From: a bacterium
Lineage (GTDB): Bacteria; RBG-13-66-14; B26-G2; WVWN01
Assembly (NCBI GenBank): GCA_035529855.1
Contig: DATKVX010000118.1
Coordinates: forward strand, 1 to 35,350
Direction: 5' to 3'
DNA length: 35,350 nucleotides
A program made the position numbers and the translations under genes. Under the pieces are notes generated by a model, which searched no databases, was not told the DNA's origin, and saw only the letters and a list, made by a program, of their open reading frames with translations. Below are positions 32,779 to 35,350 of this stretch, piece by piece (within the stretch, counting starts at the first letter, position 1; every line of letters begins with the position of its first letter).

Positions 32779-32862
32779 AAAGCGGCCGGTCTCCGGCAAA
32801 TTTTAAAGAGTTTAAGTCTAACATACGCGACGTTTCGTTTCAACCTCAAACGCCGCCGCGCC

Positions 32863-33678
32863 CTACCCCCGGGCCAGTTCTTTATATACGGCGCGCTTGG
32901 ATACGTTGAACGTGCGCGCCGCTACCGCAGCCGCGCGGGTCGCCGACAACCCCTCCGCCGCGAGCGCGCGCGCGAGTTTGACGGCGGAGGCCGGGTCCGG
33001 CGCTTTGGCCGCCGCCGCGACCACCAGCGTCATCTCTCCCTTAAGCTGCCTCGAGCGTGCGACGTCGGCTATCGAGCTCAACGTGCCGCGGATTACCTCC
33101 TGGTGGACCTTCGTCAGCTCGCGCGCCAACGCCGCGTCGCGGTCGCCCCACACGTCGCGCGCGTCGGCCAGCTCCGCGGCCAAACGGTGCGGCGTCGCGA
33201 AGACGACGAGCGTTACCGGCAGCGCCCGGTAGCGCTCGAGGAAGGTCCGCCGCTCGGCGCGCCGCCGCGGCAGGTAGCCGAGGAACGCGTACGGGTACGG
33301 CGGCAGGCCGCTCAACGCGAGGGCGGCGTGTACGGCAGACGGCCCGGGTACGAAGTCCACCGCGACCGCTGCCGCGAGCGCTTTGTGCAGTATTACGTAC
33401 CCCGGGTCGGCCAGCAGCGGCGTGCCGCCGTCGGTGACGAGCGCGACCGTTTCGTTGCGTTTGAGGCGCGTCAGGGTTTTAGCCGCGGCCGCGGCCTCGT
33501 TGTGCTCCGCGTATATTAACAGGCTCTTCTGAAGGCCGAGGTGGGCGAGCAGTTTGGCGGTGCGGCGCGTATCCTCGCAGGCGACGACGTCGGCGGACGC
33601 GAGGGCCTCCCGCGCCCGGGCGCTGACGTCGCCCAGGTTGCCTATCGGCGTCGCGATTAGTAGGAGTTTGCCGGGCAT
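32863..33678 (-). CDS. rsmI: 16S rRNA (cytidine-1402-2'-O)-methyltransferase
   Basis: 271 residues. Tetrapyrrole-methylase fold enzyme that methylates C1402 in the ribosomal P site with S-adenosylmethionine. Motifs: LLIATPIGNLGDVSARAREALASADVVACEDTRRT split over the first 40 residues, LVTDGGTPLLADPGY (about 82-96), FVPGPSAVHAALALSGLP, and PHRL. The C-terminal helix-turn-helix-like region (NVSKRAVYKELARG) is typical. No ribosome site precedes the ATG at 33678. Its upstream region is shared with the divergent small-RNA promoter. Confidence 0.95.
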   Translation of the reverse strand: MPGKLLLIATPIGNLGDVSARAREALASADVVACEDTRRTAKLLAHLGLQKSLLIYAEHNEAAAAAKTLTRLKRNETVALVTDGGTPLLADPGYVILHKALAAAVAVDFVPGPSAVHAALALSGLPPYPYAFLGYLPRRRAERRTFLERYRALPVTLVVFATPHRLAAELADARDVWGDRDAALARELTKVHQEVIRGTLSSIADVARSRQLKGEMTLVVAAAAKAPDPASAVKLARALAAEGLSATRAAAVAARTFNVSKRAVYKELARG

Positions 33679-33685
33679 TTTTTAC

Positions 33686-33713
33686 TTGACTGCTTCAAAT
33701 ATTATGTTAGAAT
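33686..33713 (+). promoter_or_regulatory. Sigma-70-like promoter of the candidate small RNA
   Basis: TTGACT (33686-33691), 16-base spacer, TAGAAT (33708-33713); each hexamer matches 5/6. The predicted start falls at 33719-33720, exactly at the first G of the closing stem of the downstream RNA. Confidence 0.7.
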
Positions 33714-33718
33714 TTATC

Positions 33719-33800
33719 GGAATCGGTGCTTTCCCTAGAAAGCCGCGTGGGTAAAACCTGCCGATTCCCTTTTTATTTCCCCGCCTCGGCGGGGTTTTTT
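33719..33800 (+). ncRNA. Candidate structured small RNA of about 80 nt
   Basis: The plus-strand transcript expected from the adjacent promoter begins GGAATCGG (33719-33726), which pairs perfectly with CCGATTCC (33761-33768). Inside are a perfect hairpin GCTTTC-CCTA-GAAAGC and a second, weaker one (GGGT-AAA-ACCT), giving a three-way junction. After a short A/T-rich linker comes a GC-rich terminator with six T. There is no ORF. It lies between rsmI and the DUF3800 gene, both on the other strand, so it is an independent transcript. I do not recognise it as SRP RNA, 6S RNA or any riboswitch class I know. Confidence 0.6.
33779..33800 (+). terminator. Intrinsic terminator of the candidate small RNA
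   Basis: CCCCGC-CTCG-GCGGGG (33779-33794) followed by six T. Oriented only to the + strand, since the other side lacks a T tract. Its T run overlaps the stop codon of the convergent DUF3800 reading frame by two bases. Confidence 0.85.
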
Positions 33801-34676
33801 AATCTTCGGGTGCGGCATCGAATATCCTGATTCCGTACTTAAGGTGCGGCGGGGTTTCGGGGTTACCGCTTTCCCAGCAGAGCCGCCGGGCTTCGTCGTA
33901 AAGGGCCCGTATATCGTTTCTACCTTGCCTTTCGGCGTTTAGATATAAGCAACTATATCCGCTAATTCGATGCCCGGGGTGCAGGATGAATCGGCGAATA
34001 ATACCGTTTGGATATTGTGCCATTGCTTGCCAATTTCGTGCCCTAACGTATACCTCCAAAAATTATTCAACGTCTTAATGTCACTAGCCCTATCCGTTTC
34101 GTCGAATACCAATATCCCGGCCTCGTTCCTCGATATTTCTTCGCACATCAGGTTAACGCGTTCGATTAACCTCTGATACCATATCGAAAGTCGGTGGTCA
34201 TCGACCGCCCCGCCGGGTCTCGTCGATATACTTGCGAAAATCTTACAGTGGTAATATTCGACTATCCTAAATAGTTTAATAATCTCTTCTACTACGACGG
34301 GGCATTTCGCAATCATATCACTACTAAGTAATTCTCTCCCCTTCAATTCGAAATCCGACGTATCCGATATAGTCGGCGGTATCTTATGACCGGGTATCTT
34401 AGCGTATTTACCCTCGGCTTCGGCGTCGCCGGGAAGATCGCTTCCGAACCTAATGTCCCGTCCCTTTTTATAAAGAGCAAAATCTCGGGGTATTCCATAA
34501 GGTTTGAACCCGCCGAATTCTTCATATAAAACTTTACACAAACCCCGTTTAAAACGGAATATCTCACAATGAAAATCTCTCGCCCGGTGGTTTTCTAAAC
34601 TCACCGCCGCCAATACTGCGTACCTCGACGGGCTCGCCGGGTGGAATTTCCCGCTTTCGTCCACGAAGGACAACAT
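33799..34676 (-). pseudogene. DUF3800-family protein, interrupted by a frameshift
   Basis: The main frame (34676-33939) encodes 245 residues beginning MLSFVDESGKFHP and ending CTPGIELADIVAYI, the start and near-end motifs of DUF3800 proteins (acidic, RNase-H-like, unknown function). A second frame (to 33799) continues plausibly with LNAERQGRNDIRALYDEARRL and ends FDAAPED. Adding one base near 33939-33945 would join them as VAYILNAER, giving a product of about 292 residues, so a single-base deletion (natural or a sequencing error) is likely. Invariant DES near the N-terminus and the ELADIVAY motif are both intact. GGGAGG precedes the ATG. It follows nadE by 15 bases and is more A/T-rich than its neighbours. 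DUF3800 genes often travel with mobile or defence islands. Confidence 0.75.
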
Positions 34677-34691: not shown

Positions 34692-35350
34692 TTAAAATAT
34701 CCCCGGTAAGGTTATCGGCTTACTAATCGTCTTGCCGGTGACGGAGGCGATTATAGGCACCTTGCGCTTGAAGAGGTTGCGGTTTAGTAGGCCGACGACG
34801 TGCCGCTGGAAGTCGGCGTCGAAGCCGCGCTCCAACAGCTTCATCGGCTTCTCGCCCTTCTCGACCAGGTAGTACAGGTACCGGTCGACCTGGAAGTACG
34901 AGATGCCCATCTCGCCCTCGTCCGTCTGCCCGGGCCAAAGGCCGGCGGAGGGCGTCTTCCGGATAACCCGCTCGGGGACGCCCAGCGCCTCCGCCAGGAG
35001 GTACACCTGCCCTTTATACAAATCCGCCAGCGGCGCGATGGAGCAGGCCGCGTCGCCGAAGAGCGTGAAGTAGCCCAGCAGGAGCTCGGTCTTGTTGCCG
35101 GTCCCCATTACCATCGCGTTCGCTTCTTTGGACCGGTCGAAGAGTATGACCATCCGCGCGCGGGCGCACACGTTGCCGCGCCGCACGTCGTCCACCTCGC
35201 CCGCCTGGTCCAGGTACGCGTCCACCATCGGCGTTATGGATATCTCTTTGAAATTAATGCCGAAGCGCTCGACGACGGCCCGGGCGTCGTCGCGGCCGCC
35301 GGCGTCGTGGTAGGGGAGCCAGACGCCGGTGACGTTCTCGGCGCCGAGGG
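34692..35350 (-). CDS. nadE: NAD+ synthase (3' part; 5' end outside window)
   Basis: The last 219 or so codons are visible; the frame is open to the window edge. It amidates nicotinic acid adenine dinucleotide to NAD+ with ATP. Motifs: VTGVWLPYHDAGG at the visible N-terminal side, RARMVILFDRSKEANAMVMGTGNKTELLLGY split around the ATP site, FGDAACSIAPLADLYKGQVY, TPSAGLWPGQTDEGEMGISY, and a basic C-terminus (NLFKRKVPIIA). The glutaminase domain, if any, would lie upstream of the window, so the ammonia- or glutamine-dependent type cannot be decided. The DUF3800 gene follows after 15 bases. Confidence 0.94.
   Translation of the reverse strand, partial: LGAENVTGVWLPYHDAGGRDDARAVVERFGINFKEISITPMVDAYLDQAGEVDDVRRGNVCARARMVILFDRSKEANAMVMGTGNKTELLLGYFTLFGDAACSIAPLADLYKGQVYLLAEALGVPERVIRKTPSAGLWPGQTDEGEMGISYFQVDRYLYYLVEKGEKPMKLLERGFDADFQRHVVGLLNRNLFKRKVPIIASVTGKTISKPITLPGIF

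Follow-up and report, generated by a model that had tools for sequence, protein, structure and literature searches.

What is the short segment that lies between rsmI and a DUF3800 gene in the window, by which we mean the whole stretch of 35,350 nt that was analysed? The sequence-only reading had taken it for a self-contained, apparently undescribed small RNA gene next to rsmI. It is a real small RNA gene, its RNA type is new and narrowly distributed, and the kind to which it belongs, that of the DUF3800-associated RNAs, is known. The features of the locus and its neighbours are as follows.

33686-33801, plus strand: the whole RNA locus, with promoter, a predicted RNA of about 80 nt and two T-runs (from sequence)
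33686-33713, plus strand: predicted sigma-70-type promoter, with -35 box, 16-nt spacer and extended -10 box
33686-33691, plus strand: -35 box TTGACT (sequence)
33705-33713, plus strand: extended -10 box TGtTAGAAT, its TG at 33705-33706
33708-33713, plus strand: -10 box TAGAAT, a 16-nt spacer away from the -35 box
33719-33768, plus strand: RNA core, a three-way junction of P1, P2 and P3 (predicted fold and conservation against the related genome G001)
33719-33726 and 33761-33768, plus strand: closing stem P1, GGAATCGG / CCGATTCC (sequence, fold)
33728-33743, plus strand: hairpin P2, GCTTTC-CCTA-GAAAGC (sequence, fold)
33744-33748, plus strand: linker CGCGT between P2 and P3
33749-33759, plus strand: second arm P3, GGGT-AAA-ACCT (sequence, fold)
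33769-33778, plus strand: U-run CTTTTTATTT, directly 3' of P1, with the T-run proper at 33770-33774
33779-33800, plus strand: intrinsic terminator CCCCGC-CTCG-GCGGGG-TTTTTT (sequence)
32863-33678, minus strand: rsmI, the host flank of the cassette (Pfam TP_methylase)
33799-34676, minus strand: the partner gene, DUF3800 (PF12686; Pfam E 1.9e-10)
34692-35348, minus strand: nadE, the second host flank of the cassette (Pfam NAD_synthase)

The promoter, the closing stem, the hairpin, the second arm and the terminator were all located in the sequence where the sequence-only reading had placed them, and the RNA indeed runs opposite to both neighbours, rsmI and DUF3800 both being on the minus strand. 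It is divergent from rsmI, whose start codon is 8 nt from the -35 box, and convergent with DUF3800, whose stop codon (33799-33801, minus strand) is overlapped by the T-run of the terminator. P1 begins 5 nt past the -10 box, and this placement of the 5' stem matches that in other DUF3800 RNAs. The second T-run is that of a clear intrinsic terminator and the first is the U-run after P1; because this first T-run follows P1 directly, P1 may itself be able to act as a terminator-like hairpin. The predicted transcript would start at about 33719 and end either at the first T-run (33774) or past the second hairpin (33800). When the 115 nt were folded, the minimum free energy was -35.5 kcal/mol with a z-score of -2.6 against dinucleotide shuffles, and 3 of the 200 shuffles were as good. 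A coding role was considered and rejected, as in the G001 copy a stop interrupts the GTG-led frame that crosses the RNA. Elsewhere in the window, at 32800-32850 on the minus strand upstream of mlaE, there is a sequence, TATGTTAGACTTAAACTCTTTAAA, that is similar to the -10 region of the RNA promoter, TATGTTAGAAT; the congeners seen have such an element before mlaE too, and it is probably the mlaE promoter.

When the locus was compared within the genus, four genomes were used, namely that of the window (G000), G001 (Candidatus Zixiibacteriota bacterium CSMAG_2382), G002 and G003. G001 carries the same pair of RNA and DUF3800 at the same site as the window, and in G002 and G003 rsmI and nadE are adjacent, with few bases between them and with neither the RNA nor DUF3800, and thus the two genes are present or absent as one block. 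The RNA was also absent from the rsmI upstream regions of G002, G003 and the more distant relatives that were inspected. Since these rsmI orthologues lack the RNA and the RNA travels with DUF3800, its partner is DUF3800 and not rsmI, and the earlier tie to rsmI has to be given up. The statement that it is not a UTR holds, as it does not belong to a leader or UTR of rsmI, being on the opposite strand and missing from the other rsmI loci inspected.

Between G000 and G001 the RNA core has one difference (T33748 to A) in 51 positions, whereas the DUF3800 coding DNA beside the RNA is 25% different and the spacer, the linker and the DUF3800 coding region are 25-30% different. The -35 and -10 boxes are identical with several spacer positions changed between them, the terminator stem is unchanged with its loop going from CTCG to TTCG in G001, and the U-run after P1 is weaker in G001 (CTTTCTAATC). 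At the rate of the DUF3800 C-terminal part (25%) the probability of at most one change in 51 is about 8e-6, and if the rate is taken from the 5' coding region of rsmI, which changes more slowly (13.6%), the same binomial, worked by hand, gives about 0.005. Conservation of the promoter boxes, the core and the terminator while the spacer and the linker change bears out the claim of a self-contained RNA gene. The homologues of the exact window RNA that were found are only two and are near-identical, those of G000 and G001.

The DUF3800 gene of G001 is intact and encodes 292 aa. In the window, this gene has a 1-nt deletion relative to G001, the frame is lost after residue 245 with a stop at 33939, and in the alignment with G001 the C-terminal remainder runs on in another frame to 33799. 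Because this C-terminal stretch is clearly conserved in the other frame, the break appears to be recent or an assembly error; the broken C-terminal part (33939-34059, minus strand) could be a recent pseudogene, an assembly error or a case of frameshifting. DUF3800 is under purifying selection, with a dN/dS of about 0.11-0.15 between G000 and G001. PADLOC and PDB searches with the window protein gave no match, neither did tblastn of DUF3800 against phages and plasmids, and the AlphaFold model had a pLDDT of 39 and hence was set aside.

When the window RNA was run through cmscan with all 4227 Rfam models, none reached the gathering cut-off, which agrees with the earlier statement that it matches no known RNA family. 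The Rfam models of DUF3800 RNAs (I, VI, VII, IX and others) gave no score to it even at E up to 10, where all matches were weak and no better than chance; those to rsmX (16.1 bits) and anti-hemB (13.9) were far under the cut-off and were rejected as terminator or composition matches. The word undescribed is therefore right as far as the lack of an Rfam match goes but not for the kind, as Rfam has several DUF3800-associated RNAs, two of which are placed exactly alike. In other genomes the weak matches of model R1, built from two sequences, scored about 26 bits or less, whereas the true pair scored 108-110, and they were read as background; a search of viral contigs for the exact core pattern found none. 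For the DUF3800-I family there was no match in 193 genomes, yet its control was equally silent.

The same architecture was then looked for at DUF3800 genes of other genomes with a scanner that required three elements in succession: a sigma-70-like promoter, a closed structure (38-95 nt) beginning just behind it, and a T-run. For each gene 420 nt outside and 80 nt inside were scanned on the flanks, the cut-off was a score of at least 22, and the expectation was taken from dinucleotide shuffles. In set 1 (78 loci, 154 flanks), which was in view while the score and the cut-off were picked, there were 16 matches against 0.33 in shuffles; in set 3 (23 loci from another phylum), which is the clean test with the threshold fixed beforehand, 9 of 44 flanks matched against 0.0 in shuffles. 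Together these 101 DUF3800 loci gave 25 RNAs where 0.3 were expected, the number of independent events being less than 25 because L051/L052 and L184/L186 are near-duplicates. All 25 are read towards DUF3800, 19 from downstream on the opposite strand and 6 from upstream on the same strand, whereas shuffled flanks showed no direction bias (38 towards, 48 away). In convergent cases the T-run often touches the DUF3800 stop codon. In 173 kb of distal DNA from the scanned loci there were 2 matches, which are one sequence repeated in L117, and 114 kb of other loci gave one match besides the window's own family. The architecture is about 20-fold enriched at DUF3800 genes over distal DNA. Across the whole 35-kb window there were two matches of at least 22, and only the small RNA locus has a recognisable -35 box, the -35 of the other (position 2664, minus strand, score 28.4) being poor. 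The 28 loci of set 2, taken from relatives of G216, gave 0 matches, and nearly nothing with a promoter-free version of the scan either, which indicates that DUF3800 does not always need such an RNA. The scan blindly recovered the Rfam families DUF3800-VI (L063, L109, L178), DUF3800-VII (L107, L117, L181, L194, L197) and DUF3800-IX (L134), some of these recoveries being slightly under the cut-off or from a stricter first scan.

The RNAs of the scan without an Rfam match are families A and C, L184/L186, L051/L052, L097, L135 and the window pair. Families A and C, both convergent with DUF3800, have the following members.

Family A, six members in all: L057, 2194-2248, minus strand; L055, 2276-2335, minus strand; L111, 322-378, plus strand
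Family A, further members: L119, 2376-2423, minus strand; L190, 1266-1316, plus strand; L191, 1261-1311, plus strand
Family C: L145, 1291-1360, plus strand; L185, 1276-1346, plus strand; L189, 1539-1600, minus strand; L198, 2230-2293, minus strand; and L116, assigned by eye

The closing stem of family A shows compensatory changes: 3 of the 6 pairs of P1 have changed on both sides and every P1 cell is paired. Family C has a CGGCUCCAYGCCG hairpin followed by YGUGG, with a possible loop-linker pseudoknot. For the window RNA, a possible pseudoknot of the P2 loop with the linker (CCUA with UGGG or AGGG) and a likeness of its linker to family C (GCCGYGUGG, CCUA) were seen by eye, and alignment gave no support to either.

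A tree was built from 129 DUF3800 proteins, and in it the protein of the window type (represented by G001) is sister to a clade of nine members with a support of 99/97. This clade consists of L050, L131, the hosts of family A and L196, and 8 of the 9 have a convergent RNA, those of L050 and L131 having been identified by inspection; in the exception, L196, the contig ends 89 nt past the gene. RNA types broadly track the protein clades. Two genomes of the same phylum, G007 and G010, have six DUF3800 genes each, and types VI, VII, families A and C and the L051 type are distributed across the two. In L063 a direct repeat of 92 bp, 95% identical (1253-1344 and 2185-2276), flanks the DUF3800-VI RNA and DUF3800; it seems to be the 3'-terminal part of a flavodoxin-like gene, and its second copy starts right past the DUF3800 stop codon. 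Direct repeats surround the cassette also in L186 (79 bp) and L194 (59 bp), and they give a hint of how the cassettes move.

The explanation that we favour, with reasonable but not high confidence, is that the window RNA is the small non-coding half of a two-gene cassette with DUF3800 and a likely RNA partner by which the nuclease would be restrained or conditioned. An AlphaFold analysis assigned DUF3800 an RNase H nuclease fold and mentioned that it had been associated with putative ncRNAs before (PMC10910872); it appears as an accessory nuclease in one CRISPR classification (PMC12669027) and occurs at Cas12a2 and type VI-F loci (PMC10910872, PMC12669027). Its fold and this company could also mean that the RNA is the scaffold of a DUF3800 protein acting as an RNA-guided nuclease or RNA-maturation enzyme, and the matching of RNA clades to protein clades would fit, but this is unlikely, as P1 closes the RNA at both ends with a terminator at once after it, and the core is nearly invariant between the congeners with no variable targeting segment seen. 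A conserved RNA that is fully structured, without a free variable segment, argues against a guide and favours a structural partner or an antitoxin. We also think it improbable that antisense pairing or transcription interference, through convergent transcription and 3' overlap, tunes the DUF3800 mRNA. The placement is convergent for the window RNA and for 19 of the 25 matches, often with a T-run at the stop codon, as this reading would lead one to expect, but in the 6 upstream matches, DUF3800-VI included, RNA and gene share a strand and are separated by a terminator, which makes pairing impossible, and the conservation sits in the folded core and not in the few overlapping bases. There is only a slight chance that this is an ordinary trans-acting sRNA for host genes to which DUF3800 is merely adjacent: Hfq-type sRNAs share the layout of promoter, structured 5' part, U-rich stretch and terminator, but the RNA and DUF3800 come and go together, the architecture is enriched at DUF3800 over distal DNA, and the RNA type follows the DUF3800 clade. 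That there is no RNA gene at all, the promoter and terminator having come from unrelated transcription and the fold from chance, would suit a comparison of only two sequences and a modest fold z-score but is very improbable given the conservation of the core at the local rate, the unchanged promoter boxes, the terminator stem kept despite the loop change and the same layout at many DUF3800 genes.

The RNase H fold and the ncRNA association, the strict pairing and the clade matching together favour an RNA-protein complex. In the partner-RNA explanation, the RNA's own promoter would drive an RNA of about 80 nt, the transcript would fold into the three-way junction, the RNase-H-fold DUF3800 protein would bind it as its dedicated partner, and by analogy to a type III RNA antitoxin the RNA most likely would restrain or condition the nuclease. 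The module is most likely mobile and toxin-antitoxin- or defence-like. It is about an even chance that DUF3800 genes with clade-specific small RNAs make up widespread mobile RNA-nuclease modules in which the RNA is always read towards the gene, upstream or convergent, with the window RNA as a new type and Rfam coverage partial. DUF3800 proteins form a large family, which is also met as an accessory nuclease at Cas12a2 and type VI-F CRISPR loci, and what the window offers is an RNA-protein pair from a single bacterial genus that is short and has clear limits. The comparison yields a testable rule, that the RNA is read towards DUF3800 and has its own promoter and terminator, and several RNA families absent from Rfam that provide defined parts for tests of binding, toxicity and defence. 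The more interesting result lies in this general rule for DUF3800 loci and in how many RNA families turned out to be uncatalogued.

Among known systems, type III toxin-antitoxin modules of the ToxIN type resemble the window in having a small structured RNA by a nuclease gene, a terminator between them and mobility. The antitoxin RNA of type III is usually made up of tandem repeats and co-transcribed upstream, whereas the window RNA is a single unit, downstream and convergent, and the fold of the type III toxin protein differs from DUF3800. Family A and the RNAs of L050/L131 are convergent like the window RNA and belong to the sister clade of its protein, but they form a long interrupted hairpin (GGCGGUUCGGCC...GGGCUUUACCGCC) and not a three-way junction, and have no sequence match to it. 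The DUF3800 RNA motifs were reportedly first described by Weinberg et al. in 2017. DUF3800-VI (RF02915; L063, L109, L178) adjoins DUF3800, is read towards the gene from its own promoter and has the plan of the window RNA: its 52 nt form a three-way junction in which a closing stem of 8 bp encloses two hairpins, and a U-run follows P1 directly. It differs in lying upstream on the same strand, where the window RNA is downstream and convergent, and in having 2 nt between the hairpins against 5 in the window RNA, whose P3 is shorter; Rfam types it as cis-regulatory, although it comes with a promoter of its own and with a U-run ahead of the gene. DUF3800-VII (RF02967) and DUF3800-IX (RF02968), both typed as sRNA in Rfam, are longer (90 and 67 nt), differ in sequence and inner structure and go with proteins of other tree clades, but like the window RNA they are convergent and have a promoter and a terminator of their own. 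The window RNA adjoins DUF3800, is gained or lost with it, and has a compact conserved predicted structure with its own promoter and terminator directed towards the gene, and because the scan recovers VI, VII and IX with matching placement or junction plan, we assign it to the DUF3800-associated RNAs.
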